Positions 14,116-43,879 of a stretch of DNA of 57,166 bases are shown here, in pieces. The notes under the pieces are model-generated. The model had not been told where the DNA came from. It saw only the letters and a program-made list of their open reading frames with translations, and did no database searches. The position numbers and the translations under genes were made by a program. The stretch's first letter is position 1; each line of letters begins with the position of its first letter. Source of the stretch: a virus. The stretch lies in the IMG/VR virus record IMGVR_UViG_3300026183_000005, positions 1 to 57,166 of that record; one strand, given 5' to 3'.

Positions 14116-14269
14116 GCGTTCGGTCATCCAAGAAGAAAAAGCCCTAAAAAAAATGGTGGCTGAAGGATATGATGATTTTTGGAAACGACGTGGCGTTCCA
14201 TCTCCTCCTGCATCCTATAACTACCAACACCCCCGAAAGAAGTCAAAGCCTGGAGCCCGTATCATATAG
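14096..14269 (+). CDS. Small basic protein, 57 aa
   Basis: Starts at ATG 14096, which has a GAAGAGG ribosome-binding site just upstream, so I prefer it to a longer in-frame start at 14069. The chain is basic with a FWKRRGVPSPPASYNY middle and a KKSKPGARII end. Its 3' end overlaps the opposing recombinase gene by 27 bases. No family recognised. Confidence 0.45.
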   Translation: MKKTRTKRSVIQEEKALKKMVAEGYDDFWKRRGVPSPPASYNYQHPRKKSKPGARII

Positions 14270-15304
14270 TTGTGTGGTGCTTTCATTGGCGTGCCCCACC
14301 ATTACTGCAATATCGCTAAGCTCCTTACCTTCGCGTGCGCATCTAGTAACAAATGAACGCCTGAAAGAATGGAAGCGCTTACCTTCTTCATATGCTTTCG
14401 GATGCTTTCGTTCTAATTCTCTACCGAAGTATACAGCAAGCGTGGCTCGCGAGGATACATTGTCATAGATTTTTTTCCATATAGGAAAGCAATACTTCTT
14501 ATCCTCCGGCTCAATCCTAGCGATAGTATCATGAAGAATCCCTCCGCCTATTAGCTCGTCATCTATTGGAAGTGATACTCTAGCATCTGTTTTCTGTGTA
14601 TGCACAGTCAGATACTTATCATTAAACATATCCCATTCTAAGCTTGCGATATCACCTATGCGTAACCCTGTCCACCAGGCAAAGTCAGCGGCAATGCTCC
14701 AGAAGTATGAGCAGTGCTTACGGATTCTTTCGTAGTCTGACTTAGTGAAAGCTATGGATTTCTTTTTCTCCTTCTGCTTGTGGGACAACAATGATTTATC
14801 CACAGACACCCCATAGGAAGGGTCCTTGAGGATGTAAGCATTGGCAATTGCATAGGTCAGTAAACCTTTGACTGCTGTTAGTTTTTTGCACTTATGATTA
14901 TACGAAGTCTTATCACTTACATTTACAAACTCATAGATATGCTTGGTTGTAATGCTGGATATCTTTGAATTTTGTAGCTTTGAGAATTTAAGGAATGAAT
15001 TAATAACAGTCCCTTCAGTATAGATTGTATGCTTCGAGTGGGACTTCATCTTCCTAAACTCCTCATATTCACCAACCACCTCCTGAATCTTTATATTCTT
15101 CCCTGCAACAATGGCAGTAATTGTGTCACGGGTAAGTGCTTTTATCCTGGCAGCAGCTTCTATCTCTGCCAACTTAGCCTCCTTAGCTAACATCTTGGCT
15201 TCATCTTTGTTCCTTGTTCCAAGTGAACGCTTAATGATTTTACCATTTGCTGTCTTAATCACGGCAGAATAAATGCCGGTTTTCTTATTCTTTTCGTATC
15301 TCAT
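14243..15304 (-). CDS. Tyrosine recombinase (integrase 1)
   Basis: A 353-residue protein. An arm-type DNA-binding beta region (residues 1-30), a SAM-like core-binding domain (about 70-160) and a catalytic domain follow each other. The catalytic set is complete: R215 (TGLRIGD), K238 (TQKTD), H312-x-x-R315 (HSFRRSF), H338 (VGHAN) and Y347 (LYDT). It would cut and rejoin DNA at an att or resolution site. It is the last gene of the minus-strand early block and ends against the plus-strand block. A second, unrelated-looking recombinase lies at 42893; the two may divide integration and dimer resolution, which is inference. Confidence 0.9.
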   Translation of the reverse strand: MRYEKNKKTGIYSAVIKTANGKIIKRSLGTRNKDEAKMLAKEAKLAEIEAAARIKALTRDTITAIVAGKNIKIQEVVGEYEEFRKMKSHSKHTIYTEGTVINSFLKFSKLQNSKISSITTKHIYEFVNVSDKTSYNHKCKKLTAVKGLLTYAIANAYILKDPSYGVSVDKSLLSHKQKEKKKSIAFTKSDYERIRKHCSYFWSIAADFAWWTGLRIGDIASLEWDMFNDKYLTVHTQKTDARVSLPIDDELIGGGILHDTIARIEPEDKKYCFPIWKKIYDNVSSRATLAVYFGRELERKHPKAYEEGKRFHSFRRSFVTRCAREGKELSDIAVMVGHANESTTQLYDTGSRL

Positions 15305-17802: not shown

Positions 17803-18002
17803 TAATCTTTAGTAACAAATGGGATAACTTGTAGGTTTGTCCCCATGGTTCTTGTTACGCTCTTTACTTCTTTGTACTCTTCATGGAGAAAGTCTCTGAC
17901 CTTCTCCGCATCTTCTTTACTCTCGAATATTGCAGTAGTTCCGTCTTCTTCGTATTCGACAAAACTATACTCATCGAGGACAACATATCTTGTTGTTAGC
18001 AT
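17802..18002 (-). CDS. Small unknown protein between PRTRC ThiF and the helicase, 66 aa
   Basis: Begins MLTTRYVVLDEYSF and ends FVTKD. Predicted beta-alpha-beta: YVVLDEYSFVEYE, then a helix EDAEKVRDFLHEEY, then a strand. Its stop overlaps the helicase ATG by one base (TAATG read on the minus strand), and its start overlaps the ThiF stop. A small beta-rich partner of the cassette is possible, but no family is recognised and it lacks a terminal glycine. Confidence 0.5.
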   Translation of the reverse strand: MLTTRYVVLDEYSFVEYEEDGTTAIFESKEDAEKVRDFLHEEYKEVKSVTRTMGTNLQVIPFVTKD

Positions 18003-18664
18003 TTTATTGGGTTTGTAATACCACTTTCCAAATTGAGGAACACGCCTCTAATGTCAAGTGATGTTCGTCTGAACAATGTCCAAACAAAGTGTAGTGCATG
18101 GTTTGCAATCATGGAATTTATGAACAGGTCTTGACGATAATACTGGTCGATGCAGTTGGGTTCCTGAGGCTCATCGCCCTCGGTTAGTTCCTTGTCATAC
18201 GGGAATGGTAGGTCACCCTTACTTTGCCCAAGGATAACTTGACCGGAAGCCCGTGAGTTACCGCAATCAATTATGTATGCATTGTCATTGTACTTAGCTT
18301 CACTGATTTCTTTGCGAGATGCTTTTGTGTCTACACAAGCAATACAGATGTGAGCTTTGGTATAGTTAGGTGCCTTACGCTTAACTGCTCGCCAATTCTG
18401 TCGATAGTAAAGGTTTACGCGCTCAATTAATACAGAGGATTTGTACTCGCCAACATCTGCTTCGTAGAATGCTTGCCTACCCACATTAGCATGGGTGACA
18501 ATATCAGGGTCGTATGCGGTGACATGTATGCCAGGATGATTGAGTTCGCTAAGTGCTTTTGCAATCCTAGCTAAACCATTAATCACATGGCTACCTGTAC
18601 CGCCACATCCGTAAACATCAATAAGTATTTTGTCTTCGGATAGATTTTCAATTTTATGTGACAT
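17996..18664 (-). CDS. PRTRC system ThiF-family protein (E1-like activating enzyme)
   Basis: 222 residues. The E1/ThiF nucleotide fold is clear: GCGGTG loop at 19-24, acidic strand end AYDPD (50-54), NVGRQ with R63, K75, and CVDTKASR (110-117). IDCGNSRASGQVILGQ (132-147) and EPNCIDQYYRQDLFINS (168-184) match my recollection of the PRTRC ThiF subfamily; C171 is the candidate thioester cysteine. E1-like enzymes adenylate the C-terminal glycine of a ubiquitin-like protein and take it onto a cysteine. Here the likely client is the product of 20333-20566. The gene stands 180 bp after PRTRC-B, and the gap holds a structured RNA. Subfamily from recalled sequence patterns, not a search. Confidence 0.85.
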   Translation of the reverse strand: MSHKIENLSEDKILIDVYGCGGTGSHVINGLARIAKALSELNHPGIHVTAYDPDIVTHANVGRQAFYEADVGEYKSSVLIERVNLYYRQNWRAVKRKAPNYTKAHICIACVDTKASRKEISEAKYNDNAYIIDCGNSRASGQVILGQSKGDLPFPYDKELTEGDEPQEPNCIDQYYRQDLFINSMIANHALHFVWTLFRRTSLDIRGVFLNLESGITNPIKC

Positions 18665-18846: not shown

Positions 18847-19434
18847 TTAATAACAAAATATAAACTCGCTAATCGTTTTATTCAAAGCTCGATTGTTATA
18901 TTTTGGTTCTTGGTTAAAAGCGGACATGAAGAACGCATCCTCCCATTGGTCTCTGTCCTTCATCTTTTGAGTTTTAGGTAGTCGCACATTGCATGAACCC
19001 ATGGCTTCGCCATGAACATCAATACCCCTAAATGGCGCGGCGAAAAGTGGCGTGTCATCGGTTGGCTCACCCTTGAATGCTGCAACGAATAACTTGTGTG
19101 ACTGCACCTTGAATAATAGTCTTGGCATTCGGTATTGCTTGCGTGGCTTATCTACAACATCTAGGTATCGCATCCCTCCTTTCACCCACCACACCATTTT
19201 GTCTGCACTATAGTATAGTGTGTTAGGTTGGTAGCATAAGTCTTGTTTCTCTTCATCCGGCAGGAGTGAATATAGTTGCTCCTTACTGAATGGCTCAGGC
19301 GAATGAAACCTGCCTTTGTCATGCTTGAACATAACAGCAAGGTTTTGTTTAGTTTGCTCGTTTTTATAAAAAATCAATCCCTTGATGATTTCGAAATCAA
19401 AAGGAATAGTGGTAAGAGATTTCCTTAGAGTCAT
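18847..19434 (-). CDS. PRTRC system protein B (E2-like candidate)
   Basis: 195 residues. The central and C-terminal blocks KMVWWVKGGMRYLD, PRLLFKVQSHKLFVAAF, DDTPLFAAPF and QWEDAFFMSAFNQEP agree in order and spacing with my recollection of PRTRC protein B. Comparative-genomic work has proposed that B has an E2-like fold. C148, in MGSCNVRLP just before the RLP turn, is the best candidate for a catalytic cysteine, but its offset from the cysteine I recall in relatives makes this uncertain; C67 is the other possibility. The gene overlaps PRTRC-F by 38 bases. Confidence 0.75.
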   Translation of the reverse strand: MTLRKSLTTIPFDFEIIKGLIFYKNEQTKQNLAVMFKHDKGRFHSPEPFSKEQLYSLLPDEEKQDLCYQPNTLYYSADKMVWWVKGGMRYLDVVDKPRKQYRMPRLLFKVQSHKLFVAAFKGEPTDDTPLFAAPFRGIDVHGEAMGSCNVRLPKTQKMKDRDQWEDAFFMSAFNQEPKYNNRALNKTISEFIFCY

Positions 19435-21710: not shown

Positions 21711-21976
21711 TCTTCTTTAATCTTTTTTATTCTACTTGGATGCCTAAGTTTCCTTAGGGCAATCGCTTCTATTTGCCTTACTCTTTCTCTTGTGATGCCC
21801 ACGCTCTTGCCAATCTCATCAAGAGTTAATGCGTATCCTTCAGGCAAGTGGTCGCGAGCCCACGCCACAAGCTTTTTAAGCCTGTGACCTGAGTCGCCGC
21901 CTGACATACGAGGTATGCTAATTCGCATTCCCGTACGACTGTTTGTTCCTGTTATGCACCCTGCTGTGCCTCTCAT
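21707..21976 (-). CDS. Stand-alone sigma-70 region 4-like protein
   Basis: 89 residues. The segment [33 protein letters not shown] (about 51-82) is a canonical sigma-70 region 4.2 helix-turn-helix with the VTRERxRQIE and ALRKLRHP signatures. Regions 1 to 3 are absent. Such a protein could bind the beta flap of host RNA polymerase and redirect or block -35 recognition, as known small phage sigma-appropriating proteins do. The stretch after the helix is very basic. It is translationally coupled to the PRTRC-E gene, so it would be made early. Confidence 0.8.
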
Positions 21977-22767
21977 AAATCACGCATTGCGTTGAAGAGA
22001 GAAGCTACCTTCTTCTCCAACTTGTCGAGACGGGCATTAACCTCAGTAAGGTCAACCTCAGGTGCAGGAGTATCCTCCGGAGGTGAATCATTCGCCACCG
22101 CAGTACGAGTGACAAAGTCAGAGAGTGCATCAAGCAGACGCATCTCCGAATGAGCGTGGCTCTCAACCTTGGCAATGCCGCCTTCTTCAAGGCGTTGCTC
22201 ATGCTTCATTGCCTCCTCATGGGTCTCATCGAAGTCCCCATTGTCATCCTCATGAGGCTCACACTCCTTGCCATTGGGGCAAGGCTCACCATTGCAAGTC
22301 TCCATGCAATCTTCTTCCTCTTCCTTCGGCTCATTAACGATTGAAACAGGAGCCTGCTCGGCCGCCGCAATCTTCTGAGCTTTCTCCTTTTCAGCACGTG
22401 CAAGAGCGACCATGTCGACCTCTTCCTCTTCTCTAGGAGCATCCTCACCAATGTGCATATCCGGACGCTTCTTATCGAACTCACCCTTATTCACACGCTC
22501 AAGCCACTGCTTGTAGTATCGGTCTTTTGTTTGAGCAATGAATGAATCTTCATCACTCGCACCCTTGTCAGGAGCATCGTCGGGCTTAGGTAAGAATGAC
22601 CACTCGTTGTCATTGGCGACATTCATAATGGTCATAATCTTGGGGTTAACACGCTTTAAGCAATTTCTGACGAAGTTGACTTTGACTTCATCGCCGTGCT
22701 TTGCGGCTCTCTCTTTAAGCGCTTCGTACAAATCAACGAAAGCGGCAGTTTTATATGTTTGTGACAT
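21973..22767 (-). CDS. Acidic protein with a Cys cluster, 264 aa
   Basis: Not recognised. The N-terminal 80 residues look folded ([33 protein letters not shown]). The rest is mostly Glu/Asp-rich, with [19 protein letters not shown] near the middle, a possible metal site, and a C-terminal coiled coil ([16 protein letters not shown]). It heads the ATGA-linked set that runs into the PRTRC genes and lies six bases after the AAA+ gene. A scaffold or adaptor role is only a guess. Confidence 0.55.
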
Positions 22768-23818: not shown

Positions 23819-24039
23819 CTTGGATTTGATGGTAATTCAGCGGTGCCATTTATATCTTTATTGATGCTCCTAACCAATGCCAGGTCATATGCGTTCAAGG
23901 CATTGAACCAAGAAGCATTGGCATCATTGATATGGATGGTATTTTGTATATCAGGTTTACCGTCGGCTTGCAGTGGACCAATGTATCCGTCCGTCTGTAT
24001 ATACGAGCCAACGCTCGGTAGTATTATTTGGTCTGTCAT
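23815..24039 (-). CDS. Unknown protein, 74 aa
   Basis: Not recognised. It has no clear secondary motif apart from WFNALNAYDLALVRSINKD, which is helical. It overlaps both neighbours by four bases, so it is translated after the DpdA-like gene. Confidence 0.45.
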   Translation of the reverse strand: MTDQIILPSVGSYIQTDGYIGPLQADGKPDIQNTIHINDANASWFNALNAYDLALVRSINKDINGTAELPSNPR

Positions 24040-24929
24040 AATAAATTTGTTTGAACATTATTGTGAATGATTGATTGCCCGAACTTGCGGGCTGACTTAA
24101 TCCTTTTGCGAGATGTACGCTCCTTGCCTGCCATGCGGTCGGCAAAGTCATAAGCAAACGAGTCAGCAGAATGGATTCGGTCTTTGATGTTAGCTTGTGC
24201 TAGACCTGTCTTCTTGAACCCAAACAGATGCACCTTATGGTACTCGTAATTAATGCAACTGCCTAGCCTGTCTAGTATCTGCGATACAACCTCAGGATTA
24301 GTGTTGCGTTTACATGTAGAGCCAATGCCTATCCAATGACCTGTATTGAGTAGCTCTCCTGTATGCCCATGGTAATACGGTCTGTCCATGAACGGGCAGT
24401 GCCACTCCTTACCATTCCAATACCTTCTATTAGATAGCTCATTGCAGTACTTAATGTAGTGGTCGTAATAATCCTCGACCTCCCATCCTTGCAGAACAGG
24501 CATGACCGGAACTTTGAGTCCTTGTTTCACAGCCTCATCCATGATGTCGATGTACCTTTTAACTGTATTGTTCTGGTGTATTCTAACAGATGCTTTTCTG
24601 CCTTGTGACTGCAGTTCAGTAATAACGCTTGGCTCACACATATAATCCTGTGTGGCTATGCAAGCTAAGTCTCCTGCATCCTGAAAGCGTACGGCTAAGC
24701 GTACATACTCGGCAGGAGATTGTATGAAATCTCCATACTTTGTAACCTGCGTGAATGCTCCACTATCTAACATCCATCGCCCAACACTAGGGGGAGATTT
24801 TCTCCCCCGTAGTGCATAAGCGGATAACATGGCACCTGATTGGCAGTCTGAACCATCAGGCATTATTTCAGTCCTAGATAGTTTGTGTGCCTCCGAGAAT
24901 CGGTCGGTGCCTGTGAAGTATTCCTTCAT
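24036..24929 (-). CDS. DpdA-like 7-deazaguanine DNA transglycosylase
   Basis: 297 residues with the hallmarks of tRNA-guanine transglycosylase paralogues that act on DNA: LDSGAF (54-59, D55 a likely catalytic residue), QDYMCEP (94-100), VMPVLQGW (142-149), IGIGSTCKR (200-208), HLFGFK (234-239) and SADSFAYDF (254-262). Family members swap guanine in phage DNA for preQ0 or a derivative. I find no FolE, QueD, QueE or QueC gene here, so the base would have to come from the host. Its likely role is protection of phage DNA from restriction. It is coupled to neighbours by ATGA overlaps. Confidence 0.8.
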   Translation of the reverse strand: MKEYFTGTDRFSEAHKLSRTEIMPDGSDCQSGAMLSAYALRGRKSPPSVGRWMLDSGAFTQVTKYGDFIQSPAEYVRLAVRFQDAGDLACIATQDYMCEPSVITELQSQGRKASVRIHQNNTVKRYIDIMDEAVKQGLKVPVMPVLQGWEVEDYYDHYIKYCNELSNRRYWNGKEWHCPFMDRPYYHGHTGELLNTGHWIGIGSTCKRNTNPEVVSQILDRLGSCINYEYHKVHLFGFKKTGLAQANIKDRIHSADSFAYDFADRMAGKERTSRKRIKSARKFGQSIIHNNVQTNLL

Positions 24930-31853: not shown

Positions 31854-31935
31854 GTAGTAGACAAATACTGATGCACCCTGCCCGTATTGACAGGGTGCGC
31901 ATAGGTTTCGGCTATTAAAGCCTCATCAGTACTAC
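31854..31935 (-). ncRNA. Hammerhead ribozyme (type I topology)
   Basis: The minus strand carries the full hammerhead core: CTGATGA, a 4-bp stem II (GGCT/AGCC with loop TTAAT), then GAAA. Stem III starts AC/GT, has a 2x2 loop, ATGC/GTAT, a 4-nt bulge and a perfect 8-bp GCACCCTG/CAGGGTGC hairpin with a 10-nt loop. The cleavage triplet GTC lies at 31862-31860. Stem I is GTAGTA/TACTAC, 6 bp, open at the ends. Cleavage is expected between 31860 and 31859. Stem I includes the stop codon of the gene before, so cutting would separate the two mRNAs in the gap. Confidence 0.8.
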
Positions 31936-32507
31936 TTTGAAGAGAGTTTACTCTTCATGTGTGCAACTATTTCACCCGGTGTTGCTGCCGATGCTTTCTT
32001 CATCTTGCGACCAAGTGTGCCGGACAACCTGAATGATGTTGTACCATTCTTGTTGTGCTTCAGCGTATTCTTAGAGAATGTCGCTGTGTTTGACTCACGA
32101 TGCTCACGAATCAAATCGAATGTTGCATCGATTGCCTCATCGTTGCAGAAGTTGTCGAGATAATCCTGCTTGGCTAACTTCTTAGCCTCGCCGTAAGACA
32201 TTGCATTTATGCCTAGGAAATCAGTTGTACCATGAAATCCTGTCTCATCATGGGAAATCTGACTTAGAACATATTCATTGTCAGGCAAACGATAGCCACT
32301 TGGTACGCTGTATGACTTGTCTTCACGAATAGCATTGAGCTTGTCGAGAATCATTTTAGTAGTCATTACCTCAGTGGTCTCCTCGTCGAGTATGGCTTTA
32401 GCATTGGCACCATCTATAGCCTGTTCACTCAGTCTAAGTATTCTCTCAGCCTCAGCACGGTCAGATTCTAGTAATGCATCGAAGTGTGTTAATGTTGTAT
32501 TATTCAC
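31932..32507 (-). CDS. Unknown protein, 191 aa, first gene of the minus-strand early block
   Basis: Helical N-terminal half (ALLESDRAEAERILRLSEQAI) and basic C terminus (SFRLSGTLGRKMKKASAATPGE). It ends in KLSSK; its TAG stop is part of stem I of the hammerhead ribozyme. It lies next to the 0.9-kb structured non-coding region and has an AAAGGA ribosome-binding site. Not recognised. Confidence 0.55.
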   Translation of the reverse strand: MNNTTLTHFDALLESDRAEAERILRLSEQAIDGANAKAILDEETTEVMTTKMILDKLNAIREDKSYSVPSGYRLPDNEYVLSQISHDETGFHGTTDFLGINAMSYGEAKKLAKQDYLDNFCNDEAIDATFDLIREHRESNTATFSKNTLKHNKNGTTSFRLSGTLGRKMKKASAATPGEIVAHMKSKLSSK

Positions 32508-33411
32508 TTTGTATCCTTTGGTTAGTTGATTGTTAATACTACACTTTGTAGTAGACCAAATCCCTTCTCATCAGTGGCTTAGAATGTGGCATGAGTTGCC
32601 TCGCTCCCTGAATCTTTTACGCTCCCTGTGTTTATGCGATATTATCGGATTGTCAGTGGAAGTTATACACGACTTGGCTCCACCCTACACTGACCACTCC
32701 CGAAGGAGGTTTTGTGCTTTGCCTTGGCAAGTTGCTTTCCGTACTAGGTAAAAGTGAACTTGTTTTATCCTCGACCTTTTAGGTTGCTCTTGACTCAATC
32801 TTAGGGATTACTGCCCCTAGGTTAGATTGACCCCGTCTTAGCATGATTGCCCCGTTAAGACAATCCCTCGCACGCTGACCCTTTAAAGACTATTTTTACC
32901 AATGTTAACCATTGGATAGCCTACCATACCCGAGCACTCGCCCTCCTCTGACTACTGACCCAACCAAGGGTGTTCGCCTCCGAGCGAGATACCGTTACCT
33001 GTCGCAGGCAGAGCGGATAAGTTAGATTATAGACCCATGACTTTTCAGGCGGCTTGGCAGTTTCACTCCTTAGCTTGCAATCGAATGCACGTCTCGAATA
33101 GTGACTCATGGCGGGTAAGGTTTCCCTCGCTTGGTGAGCGAGTTTCACCCTTGGGGTAGTCAATCCCCAATCCGTACCCCGTACGGACAATGTGTAATAT
33201 GTATGAATGTTAAGCATTGTACCCATATAAACCCCACGAAATCAGGGGTTTAGGGGATTTCTGTTACTACCTGTGCAGTTAGTAACACACCCCCCCCTTG
33301 GGGGGGACGGCAAATTTGGCTGTGCGTTGATATATACCCTCTTTCTCGGGTTTCCATGGATTTGGAAATTGCCAAAAATAAAAAAATTGGGATTTTGGGC
33401 TTTGGTACTAC
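32508..33411. ncRNA. About 0.9 kb non-coding, densely structured region
   Basis: No convincing gene. At least a dozen hairpins are seen: TACTACA/TGTAGTA (32537-32553), GTCAGTG/CACTGAC (32652-32694), TTGCC/GGCAA (32719-32730), TCAATCT/AGATTGA with inner TAGGG/CCCTA (32795-32830), GTCTTA/TAAGAC (32835-32861), CCAATG/CATTGG (32899-32915), CTCGCT/AGCGAG (33126-33142), TTGGGG/CCCCAA (33151-33170), CCGTAC/GTACGG (33172-33186), ACAATG/CATTGT (33187-33220), AAACCCC/GGGGTTT (33229-33251) and a C8/G7 hairpin (33290-33306). It lies between divergent transcripts, next to a tRNA gene. Position and size recall the large phage RNAs GOLLD and ROOL; I cannot match their consensus from memory. Strand is undetermined, and an origin is an alternative. 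Confidence 0.5.
33263..33286. promoter_or_regulatory. GTTACTA/TAGTAAC palindrome with 10-bp spacer
   Basis: Perfect 7-bp arms around a 10-bp spacer that itself holds the palindrome CTGTGCAG. It is a variant of the 22-bp element and lies in the divergent gap before the tRNA gene. Confidence 0.45.
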
Positions 33412-33487
33412 GCCATCGTAGCTCAGTTGGTAGAGCATTCCACTCGTAATGGAAAGGTCACCGGTTCGATTCCGGTCGATGGCTCCA
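33412..33487 (+). tRNA. tRNA-Thr (CGT anticodon)
   Basis: 76 nt including an encoded CCA. The acceptor (GCCATCG/CGATGGC), D arm (GCTC/GAGC), anticodon arm (TTCCA/TGGAA with loop CTCGTAA), 5-nt variable loop and T arm (ACCGG/CCGGT with TTCGATT) all pair perfectly. The anticodon CGT reads ACG. It is the only tRNA I find. It could supplement a rare host tRNA, and it neighbours the structured region. Confidence 0.95.
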
Positions 33488-33525
33488 TTGAAAAACTAAA
33501 GTTGTACTTTAGATTTGCAGGGTAT

Positions 33526-33547
33526 GTTACAAGATATAGGTAGTAAC
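33526..33547 (+). promoter_or_regulatory. 22-bp palindromic element before the Gly-rich virion block
   Basis: GTTAC at the left and TAGTAAC at the right with the standard 22-bp length; one changed base in the left arm (GTTACAA). It lies 40 bp before the GTG at 33590 and just after the tRNA. Confidence 0.45.
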
Positions 33548-33589
33548 ATCATTGACTATTGGTTTTTAAGGACTTAGAATGAAAATAGT

Positions 33590-34075
33590 GTGGCTGAGCT
33601 AGCAGAGAGACCTAGATACGCGCTTCAGGGCAGACCTGAGGTAAGGGAAGCTATGTCTAAGCTTGAGGACAAGTGGGAGCAGGGGGAGCATGTAAAGGGT
33701 GATGCCTGGGTGAATGTTGTGAACGGAGGCTTAGAGCATCAATTTATCAACGGGCTATATGTGAGAATGGTACGATTACCCGCGGGAATGTGCTTTACTA
33801 CTAAGATTCACAAGAAGGAACATCCATTTTTTTTGATGTCGGGCAAATGTCGGGTACTCACAGAAGAGGGAGTTGTGGACATGGTTGGCCCGATGATGGG
33901 AGTTACTCCACCTGGCACAAAAAGATTAATGTATATCGAGGAGGAAGTTGTGTGGTACACAGTCCACCGCACAGATATGACAAATCCACAGGATGTGGAG
34001 GAAGAAGTCATAGCTAAGGACTTTGAGGAATTTCAATTTTCAGAAGAACAAATATTAAAAATACAGGAGAAATAA
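33590..34075 (+). CDS. Cupin-like phage protein
   Basis: 161 residues. Two beta-rich repeats (GLYVRMVRLPAGMCFTTKIHKKEHPFFLMSGKCRVLTEEG and VGPMMGVTPPGTKRLMYIEEEVVWYTVHRT) look like a single cupin barrel, with H near residues 74 and 78 as possible metal ligands. Similar proteins occur in podovirus tail or head-completion regions. The start is GTG; the earlier ATG at 33579 runs into a stop after 7 codons. It opens the plus-strand block after the tRNA. Confidence 0.55.
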   Translation: MAELAERPRYALQGRPEVREAMSKLEDKWEQGEHVKGDAWVNVVNGGLEHQFINGLYVRMVRLPAGMCFTTKIHKKEHPFFLMSGKCRVLTEEGVVDMVGPMMGVTPPGTKRLMYIEEEVVWYTVHRTDMTNPQDVEEEVIAKDFEEFQFSEEQILKIQEK

Positions 34076-42892: not shown

Positions 42893-43879
42893 ATGAGAAT
42901 ATACAGAGATAAAAATATGGTTTCCAAGGGTCGACCTAAATGTTGGTGCGTGGAAATAAATTATAAGGGAAAACGGAAGCGGAAATACTTTGAGAGCTAT
43001 TCGGCGTCAAGAGGTTTTGATGTTAACGAATGGATACTTTCGTTTAAGGAAAAAGCTGATGGGCATGATACTCTAGTAAAGTATGGCATAGAACTTTACC
43101 TAAAGGATTACGAAGACCGCTATCCGGACGCACAGATACGAACAATTAGCCACCGACTATCTTGGTTGTTAAAGTGGGGTCTTGGGGATGTAAAAATAGA
43201 TGATATAGATGAGTCATTTCTTGCAAGAAAGGTTTCTCAGCAATCATCTTGGACCACGCAAAGCAGTAAATTCACATACAAAAATGCTTTTGTGATATTC
43301 TTAAATTGGTGTGGCGCTGTGGGCTACTGTGAAAAGAGAGAGTGGAAAATTAAAACAATTCGCGTTAAACCAAAAGATAGAGAGATTGGAATCCTGACAG
43401 TAGACCAAGCAAAGCTTTTGCTGAAAAATATTTTACCGCAACACCAGGCGGCACTAGCAATTACTTTGTTCGCAGGGTTGCGACCTCAAGGAGAAATGGA
43501 AAAGTTAAAATATGAGCATATTAAGCACGGCGAATGGATTGATGTCCCTAGCTCCAAGACCCCACAGAGGCTCATAACGGGTCTTCCGGAAAATATATGG
43601 ACATGGATTCCAAGGAACAAAAAGGGGCATGTTATGCCCTCGTGGAAAGGACTCAGCCAAAACAGGAAGCGCATTTCCCATAAGCTTGGTTTTAATTATG
43701 GTCAGGATTCAGCAAGGCACAGCTTTGGTTCTTATGGATATTGGGAGTTTGGGTTGGAATGGACAATGCATTCCATGGGGCACATGGATTATTCGACTTT
43801 CAAGAAATATTACAAGAACCCAAGAATTTCTAAAGAGGACGCAAAAAAATATTTTTCACTCGTGAATGTTAGACATTAA
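42893..43879 (+). CDS. Tyrosine recombinase (integrase 2)
   Basis: 328 residues. R197 (AGLRPQG), K222 (SSKTPQR), R275 (SARHSF), H297 (GHMDY) and tyrosine at 306/307 (KKYYKN) form the tyrosine recombinase active site. The residue at the first histidine of the H-x-x-R box is D272, an unusual change. The N-terminal 50 residues have an arm-binding beta sheet (WCVEINYKGKRKRKYF). It lies beside the TTTGTCAGC repeats and the regulatory switch, so it is the more likely integrase of the two. Confidence 0.85.
   Translation: MRIYRDKNMVSKGRPKCWCVEINYKGKRKRKYFESYSASRGFDVNEWILSFKEKADGHDTLVKYGIELYLKDYEDRYPDAQIRTISHRLSWLLKWGLGDVKIDDIDESFLARKVSQQSSWTTQSSKFTYKNAFVIFLNWCGAVGYCEKREWKIKTIRVKPKDREIGILTVDQAKLLLKNILPQHQAALAITLFAGLRPQGEMEKLKYEHIKHGEWIDVPSSKTPQRLITGLPENIWTWIPRNKKGHVMPSWKGLSQNRKRISHKLGFNYGQDSARHSFGSYGYWEFGLEWTMHSMGHMDYSTFKKYYKNPRISKEDAKKYFSLVNVRH

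Follow-up and report, generated by a model that had tools for sequence, protein, structure and literature searches.

Phages and prophages carry the large structured RNAs GOLLD and ROOL, often near tRNA islands; both form RNA-only cages whose function is unknown, GOLLD measuring about 0.8 kb or more and the solved ROOL nanocage 659 nt (PMC12286853). In ICP1, a vibriophage without tRNAs, the most abundant phage transcript is a non-coding RNA of ~800 nt that is known from RNA-seq, occupies an ORF-less space of ~1 kb and has been likened to GOLLD and ROOL (PMC7567579). Hammerhead ribozymes occur in the intergenic DNA of phages and prophages, and a gene flanked by several hammerheads has been reported (PMC3088659). 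The stretch of DNA analysed here (57,166 bases in all, hereafter the window) belongs to a metagenomic, probably marine phage, and its positions 32508-33411 very likely encode a conserved structured RNA, which we call type A, as indicated by the conservation of non-coding DNA, the strong covariation of its stems and its prediction by a model built without the window. Like GOLLD, type A is large, structured, phage-borne and near a tRNA gene (absent in the relative L003), but it has no covariance-model match, is linked to a gene, A2, and to a hammerhead ribozyme, and its relatives can lack the tRNA. The resemblance to ROOL, also a large structured phage RNA near a tRNA, likewise comes without a model match. 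The ICP1 RNA, compared here by description, has a similar length and a similar ORF-less setting; it differs in having been identified by RNA-seq in a phage without tRNAs. The predicted ribozyme shares the conserved core and the intergenic location of phage hammerheads (RF00008 and RF03152), but it falls below the gathering score and has a second copy of its substrate upstream of the gene. Type A would work at most like these systems and, by the covariance-model searches, is not a member of GOLLD or ROOL.

The gap (904 bases) lies between A2 (31932-32507, minus strand), at the end of a leftward block, and tRNA-Thr(CGT) (33412-33487, plus strand; found by ARAGORN and Rfam). Nowhere else does the window go so long without a credible gene (other gaps reach at most 314 bp), and the earlier note's remark that some 900 bp are gene-free in a compact genome was borne out, as only unconserved short ORFs of 73, 101 and 62 aa, attributable to chance, occur there. 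A homology search with the 73-aa ORF gave no match, and the 62-aa ORF sits in the DNA-conserved block of the promoter and tRNA, with matches in all three frames. Because the 101-aa ORF is only 20-29% identical, with many indels, to the ORFs that occupy its place on the minus strand of the relatives (three genomes), and because substitutions across the type-A region show no codon phase (80/72/82), a coding function of the gap was rejected; in addition, of the 19 indels that separate L003 from L005, 13 have a length not divisible by three. The tRNA-Thr(CGT) of L015 and L036 has a different anticodon arm. Beyond the tRNA, a conserved TTGACT-17-TAGAAT promoter (33552-33589) precedes a tail-fibre gene, with only ~10 bp left to the GTG start codon, suggesting that the mRNA of this gene may be leaderless or have a very short leader.

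Relatives are other viral contigs (L-numbers) that were reached via neighbouring genes. The non-coding region of L002 is identical to that of the window, the window is 54-57% identical to L003 or L005, and L003 and L005 are 74% identical to each other. The type-A region was also found in L005/L006 and partially in L007 and L015; the sequence set comprises three full-length divergent and two partial members. Pattern hits in L017, L018, L019 and L032 resembled chance matches in other DNA and were discarded. A DNA search of named phages with the window region returned matches to the tRNA alone, and queries with L005 and L004 against the phage collection returned none.

Rfam, including GOLLD and ROOL, was searched against window positions 32400-33600 on both strands without a match up to E = 10. 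The GOLLD covariance model (RF02032) matched none of nine records, and a search of the relatives' records with ROOL (RF03087) was also empty, although its control matched nowhere either, which makes this search weak on its own. By this absence of matches, GOLLD, ROOL and any other Rfam family were rejected. The covariance-model check proposed in the earlier note thus returned nothing; its suggestion of a GOLLD- or ROOL-like place stands in that a large structured RNA lies in a tRNA-adjacent phage gap, but not as to family, and the tie to the tRNA is loose, as L003 lacks the tRNA and the RNA probably leads away from it.

The perfect hairpins pointed out in that note are indeed plentiful: the minimum free energy of the gap has z-scores of -5.0 (plus) and -3.0 (minus), with 0 of 20 dinucleotide shuffles as good on either strand, and perfect local stems include TCCGTAC/GTACGGA, CTCGCT/AGCGAG, TTGGGG/CCCCAA, CCAATG/CATTGG and a C7/G7 hairpin. 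Because only a modest excess is left once the ends are trimmed, and in the relatives (z of -0.6 to -3.2), folding energy alone would not settle the structure, and the proof lies in covariation. Across the whole type-A alignment, the RNAalifold energy was -77 (plus) and -69 (minus), compared with -25 to -27 for column-shuffled alignments. Eighteen helices written by hand show Watson-Crick pairing at 316 of 336 positions, a descriptive figure because the helices were picked for pairing; their stem sequences differ among genomes while the pairing is kept. When L003, L005 and L015 are aligned, the minus-strand structure has 98.0% of its cells paired and 10 of the 34 pairs carry two-sided changes, a degree of covariation reached by 0 of 500 shuffles, and sliding the structure lowered pairing to 32-50%. 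A covariance model built from the same three sequences, with the window excluded, found window positions 33035-33188 at 30.7 bits (E = 6.4e-8; whole window searched with filters off, as default filters miss this domain), where a sequence-only model scored ~0.4 bits. The runner-up match of the RNA model (22135-22283, minus strand; 16.1 bits, E = 0.0014) falls within a gene (21973-22767) and was taken as chance. Covariation in related phages, whose absence the earlier note would have counted against a large structured RNA, is present and supports one. As judged from these alignments, the region is non-coding and conserved in the related phage group, its stems are kept by compensatory changes, and it is the predicted shape of type A, not its letters, that is preserved.

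The predicted RNA is about 0.65-0.75 kb long and is placed at 32548-33272, with approximate ends and the minus strand favoured, by the conserved non-coding DNA, the covariation and the inverted repeat I2; 32548-32564 may pair with 33254-33270 as a closing helix. The best-supported domain (33035-33188, minus strand), recovered by the window-free covariance model, contains, as covarying helices, P1, P1a, P1b, a hairpin that bears a loop motif in relatives, H8, H9 and H10. H10 (33171-33187, TCCGTAC/GTACGGA) corresponds to CGCC/GGCG and TCGGC/GCCGA in relatives, H9 (33151-33170, TTGGGG/CCCCAA) to GGAAGGT/ACCTTCC, TGGCAG/CTGCCA and GAGGAGG/CCTCCTC, and H8 (33126-33142, CTCGCT/AGCGAG) to GGTTT/GAACC and GGTCT/AGACC, all read here as minus-strand elements. 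The two-tier hairpin H2 (32887-32922, minus strand) covaries in both its inner and its outer stems in L003 and L005, and A.C oppositions in the outer stem of two sequences become G.U if read on the minus strand. An ACCC/GGGT hairpin with the invariant CCAAGGGTGTTCG (32958-32976, minus strand) is unchanged in sequence in the window, L003 and L005. The strand is left open for the A/T-rich hairpin H11 (33187-33220), whose wobble pairs favour plus, for the hairpin AAACCCC-ACGAAATCA-GGGGTTT (33229-33251), near-invariant in all type-A members, for the palindrome TGTTACTA-N10-TAGTAACA (33262-33287), a half-site of which recurs at 33538-33548, and for the C7/G7 hairpin (33290-33307). A loop motif, CGCTACTATTATTCACT, recurs in several different hairpins (L005 2963-2982 and 3471-3493, L003 1363-1386, L015 6628-6647), twice in L005, and is absent from the RNA copy of the window; the similar ATTATTCACT overlaps the start of A2 in the window.

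A2 (191 aa) follows the RNA in the window, L003 and L005 with 37% identity; it has no match in PHROGs or Pfam, and its AlphaFold model (pLDDT 44.8) was too poor for a fold search. Directly after its stop codon lies, as sequence and covariation show, a hammerhead ribozyme of type I layout on the minus strand (31854-31935; ~80-175 in L003 and ~2209-2291 in L005, both minus), which is predicted to cleave itself. The core CTGANGA...GAAA...GTC (CUGANGA, GAAA and NUH, with three stems) is present in the window, L003 and L005, and the window copy reads GUAGUA CUGAUGA GGCU-UUAAU-AGCC GAAA ... GUC UACUAC from 31935 to 31854. Stem II is formed by GGCU/AGCC, GGGU/ACCC or GACC/GGUC within this set, and stem I by GUAGUA/UACUAC or GUAACA/UGUUAC. 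With an unusual stem III and a conserved UUAAU loop on stem II, the ribozyme scores below the Rfam gathering thresholds (17.8 bits versus 48.5 for RF00008, 16.3 versus 56.3 for RF03152). All records in which it was found also have both A2 and the type-A RNA, and none of nine records showed a second ribozyme sharing this stem II loop.

The cleavage-site strand of the ribozyme occurs once more, as GUC followed by a UACUAC-loop-GUAGUA hairpin, at the RNA/A2 junction (site U, 32537-32556, minus strand). The identity of site U with the 3' strand of the ribozyme extends over 10 nt in the window and 12 nt in L003 and L005, values reached by 9 of 2,000 shuffles for the window and by 1 of 2,000 for each of the other two. 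The window has GUCUACUACA at site U, whereas L003 and L005 have GUGUCUGUUACA; in both lineages the site has changed together with the ribozyme, and CGAAACC of the window ribozyme could pair with GGUC of site U at least as well as with its own UUUGUC. As site U duplicates its substrate strand, the ribozyme may cut at the RNA/A2 junction too. That it would process the transcript at both sites is a proposal open to testing, with the cuts predicted after GUC at 31860 (ribozyme) and 32554 (site U). Given the related palindromes nearby, the repeat may instead be a DNA-binding site.

On the other side of the RNA, a promoter-like block (33326-33373, minus strand) consists of an inverted repeat, TTTCCAAAT-N4-GGAAA, and an AT-rich -10-like element (33331-33336), and a leftward transcription start is predicted within it. 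The block is aligned in the window, L003, L005, L015, L004, L027 and L031 and is present in L036; its -10-like element is TATAAT in L004 and TATTAT in L027 and L036. Leftward of it, the C7/G7 hairpin is kept in phages with type A and in those with another region, type B. In L004, L027 and L036, which lack the type-A RNA, a small gene comes next and then this other region, which spans at least 1.5 kb (L036 1-1536, L004 1-1040, L027 2700-4275) at the same tRNA-adjacent locus and with the same promoter block. Type B is 61-86% identical among these three, lacks long ORFs and codon phase (51/46/45; both for L036 1-1536), folds as an alignment to -163 versus -100 when shuffled (minus strand), has no match in Rfam and is unrelated in sequence to type A. 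That an unrelated, larger RNA would take the place of type A at the same locus in sister phages suggests that the role matters more than the sequence. It is a speculative and rather doubtful extension that one tRNA-adjacent locus with a shared promoter would host interchangeable giant RNAs (A of ~0.7 kb, B of at least 1.5 kb), with type A freed by a hammerhead after the next gene that cuts on both sides of that gene. The giant structured RNAs known from phages are few, and to our knowledge none has an assigned function; type A would be a new class of them, and the predicted self-cleaving ribozyme nearby would give direct biochemical access to the way in which such an RNA may be produced.

Taken as a whole, it is moderately probable that the locus produces a previously undescribed structured RNA of ~0.65-0.75 kb that is transcribed leftward into A2, trimmed by the ribozyme, freed and maintained as a stable particle. 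The leftward transcript would arise from the promoter-like block, with the RNA as its first segment followed by A2; the hammerhead after A2 would trim it and may also cut site U, freeing the RNA from the A2 message. The weakest step is the accumulation of the freed RNA as a stable, GOLLD/ROOL-like particle beyond a mere leader role. A long structured 5' leader, which would control A2 and the leftward operon in cis only, at the level of transcription or translation, without ever working as a separate RNA, is a less probable alternative: the RNA lies directly upstream of A2 and downstream of the conserved promoter-like block, and A2 accompanies it in the window, L003 and L005. However, usual cis-regulators are far smaller than ~0.7 kb and this RNA has many independent helices, the copied cleavage site at the junction speaks for separation, and in sister phages that share the promoter block this position is taken by a small gene. 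That type A is an independent RNA and not a leader is a little more probable than not.

Transcription of type A leftward from the minus strand, away from the tRNA, is likely, as its structure pairs in 98.0% of cells on that strand and in 92.1% on the plus strand (a comparison somewhat tilted by the extension of three helix ends via minus-strand wobbles), its unpaired bases are 47-50% A on minus and 19-23% on plus, and the neighbouring genes and the hammerhead point leftward. Unpaired A is typical of structured RNA, and the C/U-rich loops of the plus strand would be unusual. A plus-strand RNA that runs toward tRNA-Thr, and is perhaps processed with it, seems unlikely, also because L003 keeps the type-A RNA and its flanking genes without that tRNA (L003 1674-1740); nevertheless, the better folding z-scores, the H11 wobbles and a plus-strand covariance model that finds the window domain equally well (31.8 bits, E = 1.8e-8) point to it. 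An element acting as DNA, that is, a replication origin or a cluster of protein-binding hairpins, is very improbable. The gap is divergent and TGTTACTA/TAGTAACA and TTTCC/GGAAA are operator-like palindromes, but the stems vary yet stay paired, with conserved loops between variable stems, as in RNA. The origin alternative of the earlier note found no support and was rejected: a search of the gap for DnaA boxes found none, iterons were likewise absent, and the GC skew of the window follows the gene strand, with no turning point beyond this effect. Least credible is a divergent GOLLD or ROOL missed by the models, as the size, the phage genome and the neighbouring tRNA would fit, but no match appeared up to E = 10 on either strand and the targeted searches were empty.

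Elsewhere in the window, a ThiF/E1-like gene (17996-18664) adjoins a prokaryotic E2 family D gene (18847-19434; both on the minus strand), a pair reminiscent of a PRTRC-type or ubiquitin-like cassette. A DpdA-like gene (DNA 7-deazaguanine modification) lies at 24036-24929 (minus strand), and the same phage record carries two integrase genes, at 14243-15304 (minus strand) and 42893-43879 (plus strand).
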